The notes under the pieces were generated by a model. That model saw only the letters and a program-made list of their open reading frames with translations, was not told the DNA's origin and ran no database searches. From positions 1-64,000 of the forward strand of contig JAAEZT010000015.1 in assembly GCA_018222765.1 (NCBI GenBank): a DNA stretch of 64,000 bases. Reading direction: 5' to 3'. This DNA is from a bacterium. GTDB taxonomy: Bacteria > Verrucomicrobiota > Verrucomicrobiia > Verrucomicrobiales > Akkermansiaceae. Positions 2,000 to 51,855 of this stretch are shown here, piece after piece. The position numbers and the translations under genes were made by a program. The first letter of the stretch is position 1. Each line of letters opens with the position of its first letter.

Positions 2000-3469
2000 C
2001 TACGCAAAGAGATCCAGGACCGGTTTGGCTTTCACGAGTTCCCTCGGTTGGTTGAGGTGATTCATGACCATGGTTTCAGGGTCGATGCCGAAGGCGTGGT
2101 AGATGGTGGCGAGGAGTTCGCCGGGGTGGACGGGATTCTCAGTGGGGGCCGAGCCGGTGGCGTCGGATTTGCCGTGGACGTTGCCGCGTTTGATGCCAGC
2201 TCCGGCGATGACGCTGGTGTAGCAATAGGGCCAATGGTCGCGACCGTCGGCGCTGTTGTTGTTGCCGGAGGTGCTGACGCCTTTTTGCGGGCTGCGGCCG
2301 AATTCGCCAACGGCAACGACGAGGGTTTCGTCGAGAAGTCCGCGGTCATCGAGGTCGGAAATGAGAGAGGAGAGGCCGTTGTCGAGCATGGGGCCCGCTT
2401 GGTCCTTGATGCGTTTTGAGAGGCCTTTGTGGGTGTCCCAGGAATGGTTGTCGGAGTTGGCAACCTTGGGCCAGATGACCTCGACGACGCGAGTGCCGGC
2501 TTCGACGAGACGACGGGCCAGGAGGCAGCTGTCGCCAAAGGTGTTTTTGCCATAGGCTTCGCGGGTCTTCTCGGGTTCTTGTTCGAGAGCGAAGGCTTCA
2601 CGGGCGCGGCCGCTGACGATGAGGTTGAGCGCGCGTTCGTAATTTTCGTCGAGAGAGTATTCTTCGACAGCTTTATCGATGCTAGGCATCTGTGCGTTGA
2701 TGGCATTGCGAAGAGTAGCGCGACGTTTAAGGCGAAGAGAGAAGACGTCGGGACGCAATTGCAGATCGTCAATCTTGATGCGCGTCATCTTGTCCATGTC
2801 CATGTCGTCGCCGCTAGGATAGAGGGTGTAGGGGTCGTATGATTTGCCGAGGAATCCGGCGGCGCCACCTTTGCCGACGACGTTACTTTCCTGAAGCGGG
2901 CGGGGGAGCATCACGAAGGGAAGCATGGGATCCTCCATTGGTCGGATCTTGACCAGGTTGGAACCGAAGTTGGGGAAGTCCTTCGGGCTCGGTGGTTCGA
3001 GTTGGCCGGAGGGGCTCACCTTGTCGGTGGTGTAGCCGGTCATCATTTGATAGATCGCGGCGGTGTGGTTGAAGAGTCCGTTCGGGGTGTAGCTCATCGA
3101 ACGGATCATGGTGAACTTGTCGTTGATCTTGGCGAGCTTGGGCAGGATCTCGGTGAAGTGCGTGCCGGGGATTTTGGTGGGGATGGACTTGAAGGCACTC
3201 TTCACATTGTCGGGAACGTTCTCCTTCGGGTCCCATAGGTCGAGGTGACTGGGTCCGCCTTGCAGGTAAACCATGATGATGCTCTTGGCCTTGCCCCAAC
3301 CGGGAGCGCCACTGTGCTTTTTCTCCTCAGCGAGGGCTTTGGCCTGAAAGAGCGTGCCTAGCGACATGCCGAGCATGCCGGCGCCGCCCACTCGTAATAC
3401 ATCTCGTCGGGTGACTCCGGCGTTGGGGTCGCAAACGTCTTTGGCGGCTTGTCCTGGAATTCTAAACAT
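2000..3469 (-). CDS. DUF1501 family protein with Tat signal
   Basis: A 489-residue DUF1501 protein. The N-terminus carries a twin-arginine motif ([17 protein letters not shown], about residues 19-35) followed by a hydrophobic stretch ending at AKALA, so it is probably exported folded by Tat. The core begins [20 protein letters not shown], which corresponds to the metal-site region of sulfatase-like folds. It continues to VGEFGRSP and [10 protein letters not shown] near the C-terminus. It starts 18 bases after the stop of the 1697-residue PSC/DUF1549/DUF1553 gene and is clearly its operon partner; this pairing is a recurrent unit in planctomycetes and verrucomicrobia. Biochemical function is unknown. 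The ATG at 3469 has no Shine-Dalgarno sequence. About 40 percent identity-level similarity to the other DUF1501 genes here is apparent by eye but was not computed. Confidence 0.93.
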
Positions 3470-3487
3470 GGCTTTGGTGGGTGTCGG

Positions 3488-6400
3488 TTATCGGTTGAAG
3501 AGGAAGGCGGGTGTATTGATGAGAGCCCAAGCGAGATCCTGGGCACCGGTGAGGCGGCGTTGGGAGAGTTGCTTGGTGCTGAGGTCGAGATCGTATTGTA
3601 AGCGATCGTGCAGGGGGTCGGCACGCGGAACTTTCTCCATCGCGGTAAGATGGTTGCGAAGTTTGATCAGTTCGGGATCAATGGGGAGCGGCTTTTTGGC
3701 ATTTGCCATTTGTTCGTTGAGCGCCTTGAGCGCAGAGTCGTTATCGCGGAAATACTTGGTCAGCTCGGCAGACTGTTTGTCGTTTCGCTTGTCCGGAGCG
3801 AGGGCGAGAACAGCCTTCACATTATCGGGAATTGAGAAAGGCAGGGGGCCGGTCTTGGTGGTGACGGAGAGGCGGAATTTTCCGATGAGGTGTCGGTCGT
3901 CGAAGTGCTGCTTCAGGGTGAAGCGGAGAATGGTGCCTCCGTCGTGTCCGATGGGTTGACCAATACCGAAGATGGCGGTTTGGTTTTTGCCAACCTGCGG
4001 GGAGATGGCCCAACCGGCATTAGGGCCGCCGGGTTTGCCGTCGATGGCTTTGGCCACTTCGTAGCTCTTCTGACTAAAACTGGCCTTGGCGGTGTTGAAT
4101 TTAATTTTCTGGAATTTCGTGGGATCGGAAGTGGGAGCGACTTCTAATTCAAATTCGCCGAGCACGAAGTTACCACCTCCGAGTCCGGGCCCTTTGCCGG
4201 GGAGACGATCGTCGGCGAGCATTTCAAGCCGGACCGCGGTGATGCCGGTGAGTTTGGTGGGAGCGGTAACGATGTAGTCAGTTTTGGCATTCTTGCCGGA
4301 AGCGAAGATCGTCTGATCGGCTTCTACGGTGAGTTTGCTTCCGCTGGTGGACTTGAGTTCGCTTGCTTGCAAGTGAGCCCAGGGTGATGCGGCGTTGGCG
4401 AGGTCTTTTTCCCAGGCTGCGATCCTGGCTGAAAAGCTTTTGTCGTAGGCTTTCTTTTCGCTGTCGATTTTGGCAATGCGTTCCTTGCGTTGTTTTTCCT
4501 TCGCGTCGATATCGGGCTTAATCTCCTTCTCGCGATTGGTGATGGCGAGCTTGGCGGTATTGATGTCGTCTTCGCGCTTTGTTTCGGCGGCTGCCAAGGC
4601 GGGATCGCGTTTTTGCAGGTGTTCGGCGAGGGCTTTCTCCAAAGTGGCGTGGTCTTGATCAATGCCTTCGCTGAAGTGAGTGAGAGTGGCCTTAATCTCG
4701 GCCTCGGCGGGCGGGCGATTGAGGATGCGGTAAAAGAGTTCTTCGATCATCTGTCGATCATCTTTGCTGTCCTTGGCGATCTTGGAGATGGCGTTCTTGG
4801 GATCGTTGATGGCATTGCCGACAGTGGGTCCACTGAGAAGAGCCATGATGGGTCCGAGCTGCATATCGGTATTGCGTTCGCATTCGCAGGAGCTTTCACG
4901 AACGGGGCGACCGAAGTTGGAGAGGAAACCGTCTGGGAGTTTGACGCCGACGTCGGGCAAAGAGGCGGCGCGTGTTCCGGCGGGGACTCCGGGGAAGCGG
5001 CTGCTGGCTCCGGTGACGGCGTGGATGGAGTCGTAAAGAACCTCGGCGGGAAGACGGCGGGCCTTCGCGTGGGAGAAGTTGATCGTGTCGTCGTTATTCC
5101 ACTTGTTGGTTTCGATGGAGAGTTGGTAGGTGCGAGATTTACAAATGACGCGCATCAATTCGCGGACATCGAAGCCGCTCTCGACGAAGTGTTTCGTGAG
5201 CCAATTGAGAAGCTCGGGATTTGAGGGAGGATTGCCGGCGCGGATGTCATCGAGCGGTTCGATAATACCGGTGCCCATCATGTATCCCCAAACGCGGTTG
5301 GCGTAGCTGGAAGCAAAGTAACGGTTGTCAGGGGAGGTGATCCATCCGGCGAGCTTGTCGCGGCGCGGAGCGTCTTTTTTCTCGGCGTGCTTGGCGGGGT
5401 AGGGGAAGGCGGGGGTGATGATCTCGCCGGTACGCTCGTGTTTCACTTCGCCGCTTTTGTTTTGGTATACGATTTCGTAAAGCGGCTTGGCTCCCTCCAC
5501 CGCGGTGCCGCCGATCTTGCTCTTGCCGCTGGCGGGATCGCCTTTCAATCCGACATGCGCGAAGAATGAAGCCATCTCGTAGTAGTTGTCCTGCGTCCAG
5601 CGTTCGAAGGGATGATCGTGGCACTTATTGCAATTGAAGCGCGTGGCGAGGAAGAGGTGGGTCGTGTTTTCCATCGTCTCTTCCGGAGTGCGGAGGATCT
5701 TGTAGTAGGATGCGGCCGGGTTGTCCTTGTTGGAGCCGGTGGCGGTAATGACTTTGCGGGCGAACTCATCATACGGGGTGTTATCGGCAACTTCCTTGCG
5801 AATCCATTCACGGAAGATCTTGGCTCCTTGCGGCGCGAGGAACTTACGGTTGACCTGCAACATGTCGGCCCACTTGTTGGTCCAGAATTCCACGAATTCC
5901 GGGTTGCCAATGAGCGAGTCGATCAAGGCGTCGCGTTTGGCTCGGGAAGGGCGAACGTCGGCGAGGAATGCTTTGACCTGCCCGGCGGTGGGAGGGAGTC
6001 CGGTGAGGTCGAGATAAATGCGGCGGACGAAATCGATGTCGGTGCAGATTTCGGAAGGGAGGGTTTTCATGCGCAACCACTTTTTGGAGACGAGCGAGTC
6101 GATCTCGTTGAACTTGGGTGGATCGTTCCAAACGAAGCCGCTGCGGTCACCCATTGCGGTGACGGTGGTGGCAGCGTAGGCTCCTTCGTAACGCACGAGG
6201 ATGGGTGCTTCGCCACGGCGGAGGACCTTAACGAGCGCGGGATAGCCTTTGACGGTTTCGGCGACTTCGCCATTGCCGCTGGAGACAACGGCCTCGGTGG
6301 TGACGTCGCGGGTTTCGCCGTTCGGATAGGTGGCGGTGATTCGCATCTGCTGCATCGAGCCGATGTTCTGCACCACGGGGTTGAGTGGGAAGACGTCGAT

Positions 6401-43664: not shown

Positions 43665-45293
43665 ATGTCTGAAGAAGAACAAATTAACTACGATCTCGAA
43701 GATGACCTGGACGAAAAAGGCAGTGTTGCAGGGCTCGTTTTTCTCACTCTCTTTATTTTCGCGTTGGTCGGAATCACGGTGGCGATGCCATTTGTCGGGA
43801 AAGAAGACCCCGAACTCATCAGCAAGGTAATTCCCGCTGAGAAGTTTGCTCAAATCACCGGAGAATTTCACCCCTTGATTTTGCACCTTCCAATCGGAAT
43901 CGCCTTTCTCGTGTTCTCTTCAGAGGTTTTCGGATGGCTCTCTTTCGGGCGTTTCAAGCCCAAGACCGGCTTGGCTCTTTTCTTGGGCGTGATCACGGCG
44001 GTATTTGCCTGCATTACGGGATACGTCAGCATGGATTTGAATGGATATCAGGGTGAGGCTTGGGAAAATCACATGTGGGGAGGGGTGATCTTCGCGGGTG
44101 TTCTTGGGTTGGCCTATCTTGCCAAGCTCTGGGGTGCCCGAAATGACACTCATGGTCCGGTCTATGGAATTCTTTTGATCGCTTCGATGGGAGCTTTGGG
44201 TTACGGAGCCCACATTGGCGGGGAAAAAATTCACGGGACTGACCCGGTAAATGACCTCCTTGTGGAGCTGAAATTGCTTCCGGAGGAAGAAAGCGAAGAC
44301 GAAGTCAAGGATGGAGATCAGGGCAAAGTCACCAAGGCCCCCGAGGATCGTTTGGCTTATGCCGATGTGGTCGTTCCGATTCTCGAGGCAAAGTGCTTGG
44401 CTTGTCATGGCGAAGGGAAGGACCAAAAGAAAAAAGGTGGTCTTTTGATGGATAGTTGGGAAGGGCTTCTCGAAGGGGGAGAAGAGGCGGCCGCTCTTGT
44501 TCCAGGAGACGTGAAGGAAAGTTTCATGATCGAGGTGCTTCATCTTCCTGAAGATGATGATTACCACATGCCTCCTCCCAAAAAGGATCAGATGGAGGCT
44601 CATGAGATCGAACTTCTCGAGTGGTGGGTCGGAATTCTTCCCGATGGGGACAAGCAGCCTGAAGATAAGACTCTCAAAGAGTTGAATGCCCCACAGAATA
44701 TCATCGATGCGGCTGCAAAGTTGGTCACACCGGAAGAACTCGCGGCGGCCAAAGCTGCCGAGGAAGCGGCGAAGAAGCAGGCTGAGGACGAAGCGACTGC
44801 CAAGCGGGAAGCGATCGAGGGTGCTCTGAATGCCCTCAAGCAGGACGAGTTGTTCAAGACCTCCCTGATGTATGTCTCTCAGGATTCCACTAATCTTGAA
44901 TTTACTGCGGTGAGTCTTCGGAAATCGCTCAATGACGAGGGATTTAAAAAGCTGGCTCCAATCGCAGACTCGCTCACCACGGTGAAAATTGGCTCAACTT
45001 CGATCTCCGAAGGGGCCCTGCTCTCCGAATTGCCCAAGATGAAGAATCTGATAAGGCTTGATCTCAGTGACATGGAGATTGGAAATGGTTCACTTGAAGC
45101 CGTGGCCCAGCTTCCCAACCTTGAGTGGCTCAATCTTCACAACACTGAGGTGACGGATGAGGGGTTGCTGAAGCTCAAAACCCTTTCCAAATTAGAGAAG
45201 GTTTACTTATGGAATTCCCAGGCAACGCCCGAGGGTGCGGAGGCGCTCAAAGAGGAGATTCCTGAATTGGAGTTTTTCTTCGGGAGCAACTAA
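43665..45293 (+). CDS. DUF2231 membrane / PSC cytochrome c / leucine-rich repeat protein
   Basis: A 542-residue inner-membrane protein. An acidic N-terminus leads into about five helices (residues 22-195) containing a DUF2231 module (ITGEFHPLILHLPIGIAFLVF). From about 225 a planctomycete-type cytochrome c domain follows with CLACHG near 245, GGLLMDSWEGLLEGG and YHMPPPKKDQM. A charged coiled-coil (about 350-385, EELAAAKAAEEAAKKQAED) links to a C-terminal leucine-rich repeat region (about 430-540). The likely picture is a membrane-anchored periplasmic haem protein with a protein-binding tail. Genes of this build occur in Verrucomicrobia and Planctomycetes; the role is unknown. A shorter tandem paralogue follows. 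Confidence 0.88.
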   Translation: MSEEEQINYDLEDDLDEKGSVAGLVFLTLFIFALVGITVAMPFVGKEDPELISKVIPAEKFAQITGEFHPLILHLPIGIAFLVFSSEVFGWLSFGRFKPKTGLALFLGVITAVFACITGYVSMDLNGYQGEAWENHMWGGVIFAGVLGLAYLAKLWGARNDTHGPVYGILLIASMGALGYGAHIGGEKIHGTDPVNDLLVELKLLPEEESEDEVKDGDQGKVTKAPEDRLAYADVVVPILEAKCLACHGEGKDQKKKGGLLMDSWEGLLEGGEEAAALVPGDVKESFMIEVLHLPEDDDYHMPPPKKDQMEAHEIELLEWWVGILPDGDKQPEDKTLKELNAPQNIIDAAAKLVTPEELAAAKAAEEAAKKQAEDEATAKREAIEGALNALKQDELFKTSLMYVSQDSTNLEFTAVSLRKSLNDEGFKKLAPIADSLTTVKIGSTSISEGALLSELPKMKNLIRLDLSDMEIGNGSLEAVAQLPNLEWLNLHNTEVTDEGLLKLKTLSKLEKVYLWNSQATPEGAEALKEEIPELEFFFGSN

Positions 45294-45386
45294 TTGCTCC
45301 GAGCCGGCGAGGTGTAGCCGCACGATTTCCCAAAAAATCAATCGAAGGCTTTCTGTCGTTTATTTGCTATGCTAGACATTTCTCCT

Positions 45387-46430
45387 ATGCAATCTAAGTC
45401 GCTGTGGATCTCCCTGGCCAGTTTTTGGGGTGTGATTTTTGTAGGCTCGGGAGAGGAGTCAAAGAATTTCAAAGCTCCTGAGGATCGTCTGGCCTATGCC
45501 GATGTGGTCGTCCCTATCCTACAAGGCAAGTGCTATGACTGTCATGGCACCGGAAAAGATCAGAAGAAAAAAGGCGGTCTCTTGTTGGATAGTTGGGAAG
45601 GACTTCTCGAGGGGGGAGAGGAAGCCACAGCTCTTGTTCCGGGAGATGTGAAGGAAAGCTTCATGATCGAGGTGCTTCGTCTTCCCGAAGATGATGATTA
45701 TCATATGCCTCCCAAGAAGAAGACCCAAATGGAGGCTCCGGAAATTGCACTTCTCGAGTGGTGGGTAGGCAGCCTTCCAAAAGGAAACCAACAGCCGAAA
45801 GATCAAACTCTTAGGGAGCTGAACGCCCCGCAGAGCATTCTTGATGCGGCTGCTAAATTGGCGTCGCCGGAAGAGCTCGCTGCAGCGAAAGCAGCCGCAG
45901 AGTTGGCTAAAAGGAAGGTTGAAGACGAAGCGGCTGCCAAGCGGAAAGCCATTGAAGGGGCTTTGAATGCCCTCAAGCGGGACGAGTTATTCAAGACCTC
46001 CTTGATGTATGTCTCCCAAGATTCCACCGAACTCGAATTTACCGCAGTCAGCCTTCGGAAATCGCTTAATGACGAGGGATTCAAAAAGCTGGCTCCGATC
46101 GCGGACTCTCTCGCCACGGTGAAGGTTGGCTCAACCTTAATTTCCGAGAGCGTTTTGATATCCGAGTTGCCCAAGATGAAGAATCTCACGAGGCTGGATC
46201 TCAGCCAGACCGAGATTGGTGATGAAGGGCTCGATGCGGTTGCGCAGTTGAAAGAACTCGAATGGCTCAATCTCTACGGCAGTAAGGTGACTGATGCAGG
46301 CTTGCTGAAACTCAAGGTCTTGCCAAAGCTGCAGAAGCTTTACTTGTGGGATTCCAAAGCCACGCCGGAAGGTGCGGCCGCTCTTAAAAAGGAGCTTCCA
46401 GGACTGGAGACCTATTTTGGATTCAATTAA
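45387..46430 (+). CDS. PSC cytochrome c / leucine-rich repeat protein, tandem paralogue
   Basis: A 347-residue secreted protein that repeats the C-terminal 320 residues of the preceding gene almost unchanged: PSC domain with CYDCHG, GGLLLDSWEGLLEGG, coiled-coil linker, and the same LRR end. It lacks the DUF2231 membrane part. Instead it has a signal peptide MQSKSLWISLASFWGVIF, which is homologous to the leader of the amidase gene at 46562 (MQTKALWFALASLGVGIF), including matching bases around the ATG. The lipobox Cys of the amidase is a Ser/Gly here, so this protein is probably not lipidated. I chose the ATG at 45387 on that basis; 45369 is an alternative. Confidence 0.87.
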   Translation: MQSKSLWISLASFWGVIFVGSGEESKNFKAPEDRLAYADVVVPILQGKCYDCHGTGKDQKKKGGLLLDSWEGLLEGGEEATALVPGDVKESFMIEVLRLPEDDDYHMPPKKKTQMEAPEIALLEWWVGSLPKGNQQPKDQTLRELNAPQSILDAAAKLASPEELAAAKAAAELAKRKVEDEAAAKRKAIEGALNALKRDELFKTSLMYVSQDSTELEFTAVSLRKSLNDEGFKKLAPIADSLATVKVGSTLISESVLISELPKMKNLTRLDLSQTEIGDEGLDAVAQLKELEWLNLYGSKVTDAGLLKLKVLPKLQKLYLWDSKATPEGAAALKKELPGLETYFGFN

Positions 46431-46561
46431 CTCCCGAGGAATCTCTTTAAAATTACTTTCTTCTTTGAGTGTGAGGTGGGAGTTTTTCAAAAGTTGGGGA
46501 AATTTCAGAAAAGTGATCCCATGCTTTCTATCGGCTGTTTACTGTGTTAAACTCTCAGCTC

Positions 46562-47332
46562 ATGCAAACTAAGGCGCTATGGTTCGCTCTTGCCAGTCTG
46601 GGAGTTGGCATTTTTGTAGCGTGTTCTCCGGACCCGCCCATTGTCTCGGCGAGTGATGTCTACCGTCCCTTCGGCTATGGTTCGGGAAACAAGTATACCG
46701 GAATTCATGATCGGTCACAGAAAACGGCGTCTGTCTCGAAAACCGCTCCCTCCGTGAGGAGCAGCAGGATCAGCGCATCCAGTCTCATGAGGCAGGTTGG
46801 GATCAAGTATGATTACCTTTCTTATCGGGCGAGAGGTCGGTCTCGTAAGTCGATGAGCCCTCGTTATATCACCATACATTCGACCCAAAATTGGAGCAAA
46901 GGGGCCGATGCCCGCCGCCATTCTCTGGCGCTTAAGCGGGGTGCGCTGGGGCGTCTCTCGTGGCATTACACCGTTGATGAAAATATCGCAGTTCAGCATC
47001 TTCCGACGACCGAGCAGGGAAATCACGCCGATTATGATGGTCCGGGAAACCGATACAGCATTGGCATCGAAATGTGTGAGCATCCCGGCAATAGCAGATC
47101 GGCAACCACCGAGCGAACCGCGAAGCTGGCGGCTTGGTTAATGTATAAACACAAGATCCCTCTTTCCAAAGTGGTGCCGCATTACACGTGGCCCCGCAAA
47201 GGGAAGAATCCTCCTAACAAGAACTGCCCGCATTTCCTTCTGGACAATGGCCGCCCGGGATACAAGTGGAGAGGTTTTTTGCGTAAGGTGGACTTTTACC
47301 ATCGCAAGATTGCCTCCGGAGCTTATGGCTAA
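46562..47332 (+). CDS. N-acetylmuramoyl-L-alanine amidase, probable lipoprotein
   Basis: A 256-residue peptidoglycan amidase of the Amidase_2/PGRP type, which cuts the bond between MurNAc and the stem peptide. The leader ends IFVAC (Cys21), so it may be a lipoprotein, although the -3 residue Phe is not ideal. The catalytic domain begins at about residue 98. Zinc ligands are His in YITIHSTQNW, His in VVPHYTWP and Cys/His in NKNCPHFLL, and LSWHYTVDE and YSIGIEMCEH are the substrate-cleft blocks. The start at 46562 is chosen for the leader homology with the gene at 45387. Its stop overlaps the YkgJ start by 8 bases. Confidence 0.88.
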   Translation: MQTKALWFALASLGVGIFVACSPDPPIVSASDVYRPFGYGSGNKYTGIHDRSQKTASVSKTAPSVRSSRISASSLMRQVGIKYDYLSYRARGRSRKSMSPRYITIHSTQNWSKGADARRHSLALKRGALGRLSWHYTVDENIAVQHLPTTEQGNHADYDGPGNRYSIGIEMCEHPGNSRSATTERTAKLAAWLMYKHKIPLSKVVPHYTWPRKGKNPPNKNCPHFLLDNGRPGYKWRGFLRKVDFYHRKIASGAYG

Positions 47333-47675
47333 AGCAGGGGAAGGGCTTTGGTATCAATGCCAGCGCTGCACCAACTGTTGTAAGTGGGAAGGCGATGTCG
47401 TGTTGGAAGAAGGAGAGGTTGAGGTGATCGCCGATTATCTTGGAATTCCTCTCTATGAATTCGTGAAGGACTATACCCGGTTGCGCGAGAATCGCTTGGG
47501 CCTATCTCTCATCGATAAGTCGGGGACTACCGAGTGTATCATGCTCGATGGGAGAAATTGCCGTCTTCAAGAGGTCAAACCGGTGCAGTGTGCCGGTTTC
47601 CCCAATCGATGGAATTTTCCTAACTGGCGGGAGGTGTGCGAGGCCACTCCCATTGTTTGTGAACCAAAAGTCTAA
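47325..47675 (+). CDS. YkgJ family cysteine-cluster protein
   Basis: A 116-residue zinc- or iron-binding protein of the YkgJ/UPF0153 family. The Cys cluster is WYQCQRCTNCCKWEG near the N-terminus, then CIMLDGRNCRLQEVKPVQCAGFP and a final VCEATPIVCEP. Function unknown in general; members have been linked to metal handling and flagella in other groups. The ATG at 47325 lies inside the last codons of the amidase gene (8-base overlap), so the two are coupled. It converges with msrA, with only 3 bases between the stops. Confidence 0.87.
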   Translation: MAKAGEGLWYQCQRCTNCCKWEGDVVLEEGEVEVIADYLGIPLYEFVKDYTRLRENRLGLSLIDKSGTTECIMLDGRNCRLQEVKPVQCAGFPNRWNFPNWREVCEATPIVCEPKV

Positions 47676-47678
47676 CTC

Positions 47679-48278
47679 CTACTTTTCCAAGTTAAGCTTT
47701 TCGAGCTTGGGAGTGATGACCGCCCGACAGTAGGGGTTTTTGTTCTTCATCCGAGCGTAGTAGTTTTGATGGTCTTCCTGCGCCTTGTAGAAAACTCCGA
47801 CTTTACGGATCCTCGTTACAATCGGCTTTGCGAAGGCCTCCTGAGCGGTCTTTTTGGACCATTCGGCATCCGCTTTTTGCTCGTCGTTGTGGTAGAAAAT
47901 GTTGCTAGTATAATGCTCGCCGATATCGGCGCCCTGGCCAAGCGGGTTGGTGGGGTCATGGGCTTTCCAGAACCATTTTAGGATGGTTTTGGTTGAGATG
48001 ATCTTGGGATTGTATACCACGTTAATCACTTCGATGTGACCGGTCGTTCCCTCGCAAACTTGCTTGTAGGTGGGGTTGGGGATATGCCCCCCCATGAATC
48101 CGGAGGTCACGGAAGCCACGCCGTCGAGTTGCTGGAAGACGGCTTCGACGCACCAATAGCAGCCTCCGCCTAGGGTAATGGTAAGGTGGTCTTTGGGCAC
48201 GGTGTCTTTGTCGGCTTCGGATTTACAGGCTGCGATACTCAATGCGAAAAATGCAATGATGATATAGAGGGTTTTCAT
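47679..48278 (-). CDS. msrA: peptide methionine sulfoxide reductase A, lipoprotein form
   Basis: A 199-residue MsrA that reduces methionine-S-sulfoxide. The leader MKTLYIIIAFFALSIAAC has a proper lipobox with Cys18, so the enzyme is probably attached to a periplasmic membrane face. The catalytic motif GGGCYWCVEAVFQQLDGV has the nucleophile Cys40, followed by VTSGFMGG, HIEVINVVY, and WKAHDPTNPLGQGADIGEHYTS. No fused MsrB. Resolving cysteines must lie in the C-terminal part (NPYCRAVI). It overlaps the upstream solenoid gene by 4 bases (ATGA), so the two are one operon. Confidence 0.94.
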   Translation of the reverse strand: MKTLYIIIAFFALSIAACKSEADKDTVPKDHLTITLGGGCYWCVEAVFQQLDGVASVTSGFMGGHIPNPTYKQVCEGTTGHIEVINVVYNPKIISTKTILKWFWKAHDPTNPLGQGADIGEHYTSNIFYHNDEQKADAEWSKKTAQEAFAKPIVTRIRKVGVFYKAQEDHQNYYARMKNKNPYCRAVITPKLEKLNLEK

Positions 48279-49579
48279 GGTCTTTGCTTACTTTGATTTT
48301 GGGACTCTTTGAGTTGGTATTCGAGGCGTTTCTGAATGCCGTCGGGGACGGGATTGTTTTGCACGTATTCATAGGCTCCCTCCATGTCCCTTCTGGCCCA
48401 ATCTCCGATGGTGCGGTGGGCGGTGCGGGCGCGCTCGCGCTCGTTGGTCATTTTCATAATCCAATCAAACCCAAGCTCCGGGGTTTCGCGCATGGAATTC
48501 CAGACGAGGGTTTGCACCGTGCGGTCAAATGCGGGGTTTCCTTCGTGTTGCGAAAGCCAGGCGGAGGCCGCGATGACTCCGCTCTGATCAATGATGGCGT
48601 CGATGAGCTCGGGAGCTGCCGAAGACGCGATTTCGGTGGGTTGGCTGTCCACCCAGGCTTGTGCTCCTTTTAAGTCATTCTCAGCCCACTTTTCGACAAT
48701 ATCGTCAGCGGAATTTTTGAGAGCTTCCTCGCTGACACTGCCAGCCCATTCGATCGCTTCTTGAGGATTGATCTCGGCCATTTTTTCGGCGAGGCGGGAG
48801 GCGGCCCCGGCTTGAAGTTGTTCGTCCGAAAGACGGGAAATCCACTCCTTGGTGGCCTCGGTTCCCTGGCGGTTGAGGGAGTCGAAGATAGAGTCCAGGG
48901 CCTCGGAGCGTCCACGGGAGTATGGCAGCTCTTCGAGGAGTTGGGTGGCGCGCGGCATGTCCTGCGAGACGATTCCTTTGATCACCCCGACGAGCCATGG
49001 ATTGGCCGGATCCCGGGAGTCATTTCCTTCTTCGAAGTTTCCCTTGGCCCAGGAAATAGCGGATTCAGGATCATTTTTGGCCCAGGATGCGAGAATTGTT
49101 TGGCGGGCGAAAGAGCCTCTTGTTTTCTCGCTGGCGTAGGTGAGGGCTTGAAGTGGGTCGACCTTGGCCCAGGCGGTGAGGAGGATGCCGTACTCTCCAA
49201 ATTGTTGGTCATCGACGCCAAAACTGCGGTAGTAGTCCACGACCGAGAGAAATTGGTCGGGGCTCAGGTTTTCGACCAATTCGAGAAATCCCTGGGTCCG
49301 AGAAATCGGATCGGCGATGGCGAGTAGATCGTCAACGGACAACTGGAGTTCGTCCGGAGTTTCGCTGCCCGTGAGAGTGCGTCCACTTCGAGTTGAAGAT
49401 TTGGAAGAGGTGGCGGTGTTCCGGGAAATGGTTCGGCTTGGGCCTGAGGAGGACACCTGGGCGCTTTTGCTCGCTTCTGTCGAATTGGATGGAGCGTCGA
49501 AGCTTGTCCGTCCAATGAAGAAGGCGGCTCCGCAGCTGAGAGCCCATCCGGCGGCGATAAAAGTAGTTTTGTTGTCCAT
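48275..49579 (-). CDS. membrane-anchored alpha-solenoid repeat protein (paralogue A)
   Basis: A 434-residue protein with an N-terminal membrane anchor (about residues 7-24, FIAAGWALSCGAAFFIG), a Ser/Thr-rich linker to about 75, and then a row of about ten helical repeats of 30-40 residues. The repeats share a W-A-x-x-D-P-x-x-A-x-x-W pattern (AWAKVDPLQALTYA, SWAKNDPESAISWAKG, MAEINPQEAIEWAG). This looks like a TPR/Sel1-like solenoid for protein binding in the periplasm. Its neighbour at 50566 is a clear paralogue. It overlaps msrA by 4 bases and is divergent from the YlbF gene. No function is known to me. Confidence 0.75.
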   Translation of the reverse strand: MDNKTTFIAAGWALSCGAAFFIGRTSFDAPSNSTEASKSAQVSSSGPSRTISRNTATSSKSSTRSGRTLTGSETPDELQLSVDDLLAIADPISRTQGFLELVENLSPDQFLSVVDYYRSFGVDDQQFGEYGILLTAWAKVDPLQALTYASEKTRGSFARQTILASWAKNDPESAISWAKGNFEEGNDSRDPANPWLVGVIKGIVSQDMPRATQLLEELPYSRGRSEALDSIFDSLNRQGTEATKEWISRLSDEQLQAGAASRLAEKMAEINPQEAIEWAGSVSEEALKNSADDIVEKWAENDLKGAQAWVDSQPTEIASSAAPELIDAIIDQSGVIAASAWLSQHEGNPAFDRTVQTLVWNSMRETPELGFDWIMKMTNERERARTAHRTIGDWARRDMEGAYEYVQNNPVPDGIQKRLEYQLKESQNQSKQRP

Positions 49580-49673
49580 CTCGCGTTATTTTATCATAGA
49601 TTTACCCAAACACAGACGGGATTTTTTCAATCTAACGGTTGCCGGATCGGAAAGTCGTGACTATGGCTTCCTC

Positions 49674-50111
49674 ATGCAGATCCTTGAAGATGATTCCGCA
49701 GTGATGCTGAAAGCACGCGAACTTTGCTCCACGATTGCCGAAGATGCGGATTATCAGCAATTATTGGCGAAGGTTGAGACTTTTCTCAACAATGATGAAG
49801 CCCGGTTGGCCTATCAGTCGGTGCACGAAAGCGGTCAGGCCCTGAATCAAAAACAGCAGGCCGGACTGGAGCTTGCCGATTCGGAAATCGCTCAATTTGA
49901 GTCGGCTCGTGAATCTTTGATGGCCAATCCGATCGCTTCGGAATTTCTCGGAGCCCAAAAGGATCTCGAGATCCTTCAAACGACTGTTGGTCGTTTGGTT
50001 GGGATGACGCTTGAGCTGGGACGCGTTCCGACGTCAGAAGACATTGCCCAAACCCAAGGCGGCGGTTGTTGCGGCGGTGAGGGTGGCGGCGGCGGCGGCG
50101 GTGGTGGATGA
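49674..50111 (+). CDS. YlbF/YmcA family protein with Gly/Cys tail
   Basis: A 145-residue helical protein of the Com_YlbF family. The body is two to three long helices (VMLKARELCSTIAEDADYQQL, then MANPIASEFLGAQKDLEIL). In Firmicutes YlbF, YmcA and YaaT form a complex that controls mRNA processing by RNase Y and binds iron-sulfur clusters. The C-terminus here is GGGCCGGEGGGGGGGGG, a Cys pair in a glycine tail. I start at the ATG at 49674; the frame is open further upstream only because it shadows the divergent gene. A second small gene follows with a possible GTG overlap. Confidence 0.78.
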   Translation: MQILEDDSAVMLKARELCSTIAEDADYQQLLAKVETFLNNDEARLAYQSVHESGQALNQKQQAGLELADSEIAQFESARESLMANPIASEFLGAQKDLEILQTTVGRLVGMTLELGRVPTSEDIAQTQGGGCCGGEGGGGGGGGG

Positions 50112-50565: not shown

Positions 50566-51855
50566 TCACTTAGGACGTTGGTCCTTCGGTACGATCGATT
50601 TGACAATTTTGGGGGGTAAGGTTGCGGCGTTGTCGATGGCCCAGGCGATGGCCGCCTGCTTGTCGGTCTTGGACCAGGTCTTCAAGATATCACGGTAGTA
50701 TCGTTCCTGGTCGGAGCTTTTTGAGAGGGTGGGGACACTATCGAGCGCGATTTGCGGATCCTGACTGCCTGCTTCGCGAAGGAACAGGACGCGCGCGCCA
50801 TCGAGGTCGGGGTCATCTCCCAAATTCTGGAGCCATTGTGCGGCTTCGGCCGGGTCTTGGCGGGCCAGATGTTTGGCGACTCCCTCCGCTGCCTCTGTCA
50901 TGGTGTCCAGTGGTAGGCTTTCGGTCCATAGCTTGGCTCCTTCAATATCGTTCGCGGCGTAGACGTCGGCAACGACCTCCGAGGCGTCCCGCCGGGCGCC
51001 GACGGTATTTATTTCCCGGATCCACTCGGCAGCTGCGACCGGATCGCGGTCCGCCAGCGGGCGGGCCAGACGGGTGGCAGCTTCCCGCTGGAGTTTGGGC
51101 TCTTCGATCATCTCAACCCATTCTCCGGCGAAATCAGTCCCTCGGGATACGACTTCTGGGAGGATGGTGCGGATAGCTTGTTTGCGGGTTTCATCAGCGG
51201 GAAGTCTTTGTAAGGTCTGCAAAGCTCCGGCGGGATCATTTCGGGCCATACCCTGAGCCAATCCAACGATCCAATCGTTGACGTCGCCTTCATCCTTCAG
51301 TCCGTCAATGGCACCTGCGGCAGCTTCCGGGTCCTGGGCGGCCCAAGCGGCGATAGCGGTTTTACGACTCCATCCATCGGGTTCGCTTTGTTCGAAATAG
51401 TCGATCGCAGAGTGGGGATCCTGGCTCATCCAGGCTGAGATGAGCATAACATACTCGCTGCGATTGTAGTCGACCCACCCCGATTCCCGGAATCCCGAGA
51501 CGATACCTTCATATTCAGAGGGGTCGAGTTGATCGATGAATTGAATGAGTTGCCGGGTGCGCTCGACACGGTTGCTGGTATTGAGGATTTCCGCCATCTG
51601 AAAGCGCGCGGCTTCAATTCGGTCGTGTTGTTCAGGGGAGGAAACAGAGCGTTTTCTGGTGAGGCTGGAGTTTTGATTGGCTAGAGATGGTGAACCACTG
51701 CGCTTATTTGAGCTTGCCCCAGAAGTTGCCGGAGCGTCCTCTGAGACTGAGACTTCGCGGGAGGAAGGAGATTGTTGCCTCCCAATCATAATCCCGATTC
51801 CCAGCGCTAGAGGCCAGAGACCGATCAGAAGGAGTCCGCGTGGGGTGACTTTCAT
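50566..51855 (-). CDS. membrane-anchored alpha-solenoid repeat protein (paralogue B)
   Basis: A 429-residue paralogue of the gene at 48275. The N-terminal anchor is LLLIGLWPLALGIGIMIG (about residues 8-25), then a Ser-rich linker and about ten helical repeats with the same W-x-x-D-P-x-x-A signature (AWMSQDPHSAIDYFEQ, AWAAQDPEAAAGAID, ADRDPVAAAEWIREI, ARQDPAEAAQWLQNL). Both share the segment near residue 90 on surveying an SEYVMLISAW / GEYGILLTAW match. It is convergent with the small gene at 50143 and divergent from the SNF2 gene. Function unknown; a periplasmic scaffold is a reasonable guess. Confidence 0.75.
   Translation of the reverse strand: MKVTPRGLLLIGLWPLALGIGIMIGRQQSPSSREVSVSEDAPATSGASSNKRSGSPSLANQNSSLTRKRSVSSPEQHDRIEAARFQMAEILNTSNRVERTRQLIQFIDQLDPSEYEGIVSGFRESGWVDYNRSEYVMLISAWMSQDPHSAIDYFEQSEPDGWSRKTAIAAWAAQDPEAAAGAIDGLKDEGDVNDWIVGLAQGMARNDPAGALQTLQRLPADETRKQAIRTILPEVVSRGTDFAGEWVEMIEEPKLQREAATRLARPLADRDPVAAAEWIREINTVGARRDASEVVADVYAANDIEGAKLWTESLPLDTMTEAAEGVAKHLARQDPAEAAQWLQNLGDDPDLDGARVLFLREAGSQDPQIALDSVPTLSKSSDQERYYRDILKTWSKTDKQAAIAWAIDNAATLPPKIVKSIVPKDQRPK

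Follow-up and report, generated by a model that had tools for sequence, protein, structure and literature searches.

The open reading frame at 45387-46430 (+) of the 64,000-nucleotide stretch of Akkermansiaceae DNA analyzed here (the window) is a chimera of the C-terminal body of the gene upstream, denoted as gene A, and the start region of the amidase gene downstream. The two parts have separate identifiable parents, the body coming from A and the leader together with its upstream bases from the amidase gene. We consider it probable that the body of A came to lie behind the promoter, start codon and signal sequence of the amidase gene, most likely by one tandem duplication. A preliminary description of this DNA had proposed that a partial cytochrome/leucine-rich repeat (LRR) duplicate was joined to the leader of its downstream neighbor, and both halves of that proposal held up, since the body matches A and the leader matches the amidase.

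Domain organization of gene A and the chimera

Gene A (43665-45293, +; 542 aa) is the parent of the body. Based on Pfam matches and the hydrophobicity profile, its architecture from the N- to the C-terminus comprises hydrophobic segments with DUF2231 (E 4.3e-6), a PSCyt1 cytochrome c domain (E 8.6e-12), a coiled region, and LRRs (LRR_4, E 7.4e-6, where the 26.5 bits lie slightly under the cut-off of 27). The hydrophobic segments span residues 21-39 and about 68-158. The duplicated portion of A runs from KAPEDRLAYAD to the gene end (44334-45290, +), as judged from the body comparison and from a direct repeat at a spacing of 1137 bases, in which 44333-44632 and 45470-45769 are 81% identical over 300 bases. 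At the protein level, residues 20-347 of the chimera are 78% identical to A. The copy is thus C-terminal as first described, but it covers about 320 of 542 residues, which is three fifths of A rather than the two thirds initially assumed.

The chimeric gene, delineated by leader alignment, Pfam, and orthologues, encodes 347 aa. Its body (45471-46427, +) retains the CxxCH heme motif (C49, C52, H53), the HMPP motif, the coiled region and the LRRs, and both CxxCH and HMPP were invariant columns in an alignment of six sequences. Pfam matches were PSCyt1 (E 2.5e-12), LRR_4 (E 1.3e-6) and LRR_6 (E 2.1e-6). With 47.6 bits against the Pfam cut-off of 22 and an intact CxxCH, the chimera belongs to PSCyt1 (PF07635). 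It has neither a DUF2231 match nor a strong hydrophobic segment. An NCBIfam search with the proteins of A, the chimera and the amidase returned no families. The predicted structure of the chimera, computed from a six-sequence input, had a mean pLDDT of 55, with values of at least 70 at residues about 221-340 and below 50 at residues 1-159; the model is thus of low confidence outside the LRR part. When the genome of the window was searched with the chimera, 31 matches were obtained, and the 29 beyond A and the chimera itself were to the N-terminal, PSCyt1-containing part and were spread over many contigs. The genome thus harbors a large PSCyt1 family.

The leader and 5' region match those of the amidase gene

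The amidase gene (46562-47332, +; Amidase_2, Pfam E 7.9e-19) starts with a lipobox-like leader containing FVAC, a leader type that recurs in its orthologues in the genus. The leader of the chimera, MQSKSLWISLASFWGVIFVG (45387-45446, +), matches the amidase leader MQTKALWFALASLGVGIFVA with 43 of 57 bases identical. The promoter-like 5' region of the chimera (45327-45386, +) is likewise homologous, by alignment against shuffles, to the corresponding 60 bases upstream of the amidase start codon (46502-46561, +), its source. In total, the match spans about -60 to about +60 around the two ATGs. Local DNA alignment of 45290-45480 with 46440-46660 gave a score of 271, while 2000 dinucleotide shuffles gave a mean of 110.9 (sd 16.8) and a maximum of 202.

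As a control for signal peptides, we took the 470 ATG starts of open reading frames of at least 100 aa in the window, 26 of which were signal-peptide-like by a simple rule; these include the chimera and the amidase, leaving 24 control starts. Against the chimera, the controls scored at most 91 over leader and upstream region, with at most 30 of 57 leader bases identical, whereas the amidase start scored 258 with 43 of 57. Among all starts in the window, a score of 510 was that of the chimera's own alternative upstream ATG at 45369, and the next best beside the amidase was 99. The alignment of the leader and the bases around the ATG with those of the amidase, as originally reported, is therefore well above both shuffles and controls, and considering the distance between 258 and 91, signal-peptide likeness alone does not account for it. 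A DNA search of the genome with the leader recovered the chimera only and missed even the amidase leader, so this search is too insensitive for a dispersed leader family.

By eye, both the chimera (45368-45386) and the amidase gene (46543-46561) have a TRTGNT element some 14-19 bases upstream of the ATG, with no obvious ribosome-binding site in either. It may serve as the -10 element for transcripts that are leaderless or nearly so.

Distribution across the genus

The order A-chimera-amidase occurs in four of 27 genomes of the genus, namely the window's genome (G000) and three of the 26 others (G017, G008 and G004, with chimera orthologues at loci L043, L044 and L045). Three chimera counterparts also appear under NHEN01000058.1, JAQWZU010000004.1 and PBTU01000127.1, which are metagenome-assembled Verrucomicrobiales and were equated with G017, G008 and G004. 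A Planctomycetota sequence (L046) was rejected as a further counterpart, being 39% identical over part of the query. In the four genomes both parents are intact and flank the fusion, with a contig end cutting off the start of A in G017. The 60 bases proximal to the ATG are alike between chimera and amidase in all four: 1, 0, 0 and 35 of 1000 shuffles reached the observed score in G000, G017, G008 and G004, respectively, so that the weakest case is G004 (p = 0.035). The intergenic stretch between chimera and amidase measures 52 bases in G008 (L044, 4106-4157) versus 126-132 in the other three, and in G008 the promoter-like region of the amidase gene begins immediately after the chimera stop codon.

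With a threshold of E 1e-30, 25 of the 27 genomes yielded a PSCyt1-LRR relative. In fifteen genomes this is a single long A-like gene; five genomes combine a long gene with a short one on a different contig, and G014 (81% complete) has a short gene only. These short genes, present in six genomes (L082-L087 in G013, G014, G016, G019, G023 and G025; at about 2950-4060 of the oriented stretch), encode 334 aa with a different signal-peptide-like leader, e.g., MKHCYLLLCFVLVLESKGA. In five of the six, the gene directly follows what we take to be a sulfatase-like gene, while at L083 the called open reading frame differs. The six form their own clade (100/100) inside the tree of A. As this clade is independent of the chimeras, the membrane domain has been replaced at least twice in the genus, whose PSCyt1-LRR bodies occur either with a membrane domain or with a signal-peptide-like leader only. 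No donor of the L082-L087 leader was found among the neighboring gene starts in the fetched stretches, and the highest score, 116 (L087), belonged to an ATG inside the body of the same gene.

The junction and loss of the lipobox cysteine

Identity profiles over 15 bases in the four genomes place the junction zone, where the sequence passes from amidase-like to clearly A-like, at 45447-45470 (+). In each of the four, identity to the amidase gene is raised up to about +60, though more weakly in G004, and from about +90 onward the identity to A is strong. Self-alignment, suggested at the outset for locating breakpoints, revealed the repeat; since the junction alignments differ among the four genomes, the breakpoint is given here as a zone.

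At the junction, Ser replaces the lipobox Cys of the amidase: the amidases read VAC, and the four chimeras read VGS, VAS, VGS and ASS. None of the four chimeras retains this Cys, and accordingly none was classed as a lipoprotein. The G004 chimera has another Cys at residue 18, which is preceded by V-I and falls outside the lipobox pattern. The change of the lipobox Cys to Ser, as first noted, is thus correct as an outcome, but a single Cys-to-Ser substitution is unsupported, given that amidase-like sequence gives way to A-like sequence at that very site. The Cys may have disappeared in the joining itself or afterwards.

Signal peptidase I prefers small residues at -3 and -1, and the V-x-S or A-x-S preceding a Gly in the chimeras fits this rule. 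The chimera leaders are weakly hydrophobic: over 19-residue windows, three of the four stay at or below 1.5 and the G004 chimera peaks at 1.54, compared with 1.83 in the amidase. From the sequence features, the chimera probably makes a secreted form of the cytochrome-LRR protein, which would be exported by Sec, with signal peptidase I cleaving it behind the Ser. The product would then be a soluble periplasmic or surface heme protein with an LRR interaction surface, where heme binding is predicted from the conserved motif. The chimera is probably expressed in an amidase-like manner alongside membrane-bound A. Of the conversion proposed earlier, from a membrane-anchored protein to a soluble secreted form, the absence of both the membrane domain and the lipobox Cys is observed, and soluble export is the putative consequence.

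Direction of transfer and origin of the locus

We searched 18 of the 27 genomes for the amidase (all except G018-G026) and found it in 17, of which four are the chimera clade and 13 lie outside it; G006 gave no match. Leaders were compared for 11 of these 13, as the start in G007 lies beyond the contig end and the leader in G011 is more diverged, though its lipobox Cys is kept. All 11 extracted leaders are of the type Mxxx(S/A)L... with a lipobox Cys, e.g., MRRKSLWFTLASLGVGVFVACSADPP in G012, with G005 and G001 more diverged. Against amidases within its own clade, the leader of the window's chimera is identical at 43 of 57 bases, and against those outside at no more than 38 of 57; for its upstream region the values are 28-30 of 48 and at most 18 of 48, respectively. 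For the other three chimeras, the amidases of their own clade are likewise the nearest. Given that amidases of chimera-free genomes carry the same leader type, the leader passed from the amidase gene to the chimera together with the promoter-like region, which bears out the claim that it came from the downstream gene.

Both parents are older than the chimera, as A and the amidase gene occur without it in other genomes of the genus, in agreement with the tree described below. In none of the 13 non-clade genomes did the best amidase match share a contig with one of the listed PSCyt1-LRR relatives; G011 has no such relative. A CxxCxxCC-domain gene (47325-47675, +; Pfam CxxCxxCC, E 1.6e-7) is a conserved partner of the amidase, adjoining it in 12 of the 13 non-clade loci, with the thirteenth stopping at a contig end. 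Considering this conservation, the amidase locus is an old context. By comparison, 18 of 19 non-clade A loci adjoin a gene for a 179-aa protein and/or a gene that is presumably methyltransferase-like (A of G015, L077, was included in the tree and not among these 19). In the window's genome, the presumed methyltransferase-like gene lies on contig C12 beside a partner that we take to be PBP-like, and a relative of the 179-aa gene lies on contig C35, both without A. The window's amidase gene keeps its CxxCxxCC partner, and genes further downstream are common to G005 (L121). Since A and the amidase gene elsewhere lie apart in contexts of their own, gene A is most likely a newcomer that moved to the amidase locus.

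Two of the downstream genes, encoding 434 aa (48275-49579) and 429 aa (starting at 50566, minus strand), have counterparts downstream of the G005 amidase (L121). The proteins cross-match weakly (25-29%), and the two genes are therefore probably distant paralogues. An open reading frame at 49317-50111 has a translation ending in CCGGEGGGGGGGGG.

Age and selection

The maximum-likelihood tree covered 48 bodies, L031 being left out as a duplicate of L083. In it, the four chimeras form one clade (100/100) and the four A genes of the same loci another (100/98), and the two clades are sisters. Nei-Gojobori dS between A and the chimera body is 1.05-1.43, and between the leaders of chimera and amidase it is 0.77-1.32. 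Synonymous divergence is therefore similar in the two halves, although with only about 14 synonymous sites in the leader their equal age is weakly tested. Between orthologues of the species, whether of A, chimera or amidase, dS is 0.15-0.28. Because the divergence of the copies far exceeds that of the orthologues and the tree places the event before the split of the four species, the chimera is old relative to them and the suggestion of a recent origin was dropped. Between orthologues, dN/dS is 0.08-0.17 for the chimera and 0.04-0.10 for A, and the chimera is thus under purifying selection and evolves slightly faster than its parent A.

Proposed mechanism and alternative histories

In the history that we propose, gene A would have come to lie directly upstream of the amidase gene in the ancestor of the four species. 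A single tandem duplication of about 1.14 kb, starting inside A just before its duplicated portion and ending within the leader of the amidase gene close to the lipobox, would then have left both parent genes whole and created a new in-frame fusion where the two copies join. The lipobox Cys would have been lost at or near the joint, and purifying selection would have kept the chimera. One such duplication accounts for the observed gene order, in which neither parent is disrupted and the joint coincides with the fusion. A single-step mechanism of this kind is what we infer from the arrangement of the locus. It also predicts that the whole stretch between A and the amidase gene was repeated. When the distal intergenic stretches between A and chimera were compared with those between chimera and amidase, 12 pairs gave p values from 0.015 to 0.704, and a local test of the intergenic stretches gave p values of 0.078 (G000), 0.657 (G017) and 0.009 (G004), in which coding ends of known homology were included; G008 was too short for this test. 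As dS is above 1, saturation may mask homology there and may be the reason for the weak likeness. Synteny in relatives without the copy, the comparison recommended in the preliminary description, provided A loci and amidase loci free of the chimera but no A next to an amidase: within the examined flanks, this state was seen at none of 19 A loci and none of 13 amidase loci outside the clade (the upstream side in G007 lies beyond the contig end). That no such intermediate was sampled is not evidence against the fusion.

Since the distal stretches are not clearly alike, a two-step history has to be weighed, in which the tandem duplication of A (or just of its C-terminal part) first placed a copy beside the amidase gene and a separate, later short recombination copied the amidase promoter and leader onto it. 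Such a history would suit both the lack of clear distal homology and the shortness of the homologous block, about -60 to +60. However, it calls for two separate rare events, one of which had to preserve the reading frame, when a single event is enough; the synonymous divergence of leader and body is similar, at the roughly 14 leader sites available; and its intermediate was not seen among the 25 genomes of the genus with a match. We therefore regard it as unlikely, though it is the most serious competitor to the single duplication.

Far less probable is a transfer in the reverse direction, with the amidase gene taking its promoter and leader from the chimera. The homology itself is symmetrical and would permit this, but all 11 amidases extracted from chimera-free genomes carry the same leader type and lipobox, and it is A and the chimera that arrived late at this site; the old leader type of the amidase led us to reject it. 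Equally improbable is that the leaders resemble each other merely as signal peptides do. Both are short, contain Lys and are hydrophobic, but the 60 non-coding bases upstream match too, and the 24 other signal-peptide-like starts score at most 91 against 258. Convergent signal peptides were rejected on these window controls together with the shuffles (271 against a maximum of 202).

Relation to known gene fusions

Tandem duplication is described as placing a coding region behind a neighbor's promoter at the joint, as in the Salmonella his genes (Anderson and Roth 1978, cited in PMC11111574), and the section of PMC11111574 on such events cites Li and Bock 2019 for promoter capture by tandem duplication without classical homologous regions. 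The single duplication proposed here resembles the promoter capture of PMC11111574 in that a coding region comes to lie behind a neighbor's promoter at a duplication joint. The cases described there are experimental, whereas the chimera is natural, old, common to four species, and includes a coding leader. As the coding leader is part of the fusion, the address of the chimera probably changes in addition to its expression. Bacterial fusion genes born by deletion, as outlined in PMC12803068, also join pieces of two genes at a rearrangement joint; in those fusions, however, the deletion removes material, while here both A and the amidase gene are intact. Planctomycete-specific cytochrome c (PSCyt) proteins, which include those with the PSCyt1 domain, are reported as numerous in many Verrucomicrobia genomes and of unknown function (PMC5615132). 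In the combinations given in that report they occur with PSD domains and carbohydrate-binding modules, in contrast to DUF2231 with LRRs or a borrowed leader here. No title on the A-chimera gene pair was found among the best matches in open-licence literature. One study, judging by its title, reportedly deals with a fusion that alters a protein's destination.

The chimera is a clear natural case of an already known fusion type, in which the donor, the recipient and the direction are readable. Signal peptides and promoters are short, and their donors are hard to trace. Here the donor, the recipient, the direction, the age relative to the species, and the later selection can all be read from the sequence. 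We lean towards the view that one natural tandem duplication gave a cytochrome-LRR body both a new promoter and a new address, from membrane-bound to free in the periplasm, and that selection retained this arrangement as the four species split. As such, the locus illustrates, in a natural setting, how gene fusion may move a bacterial protein to another location.
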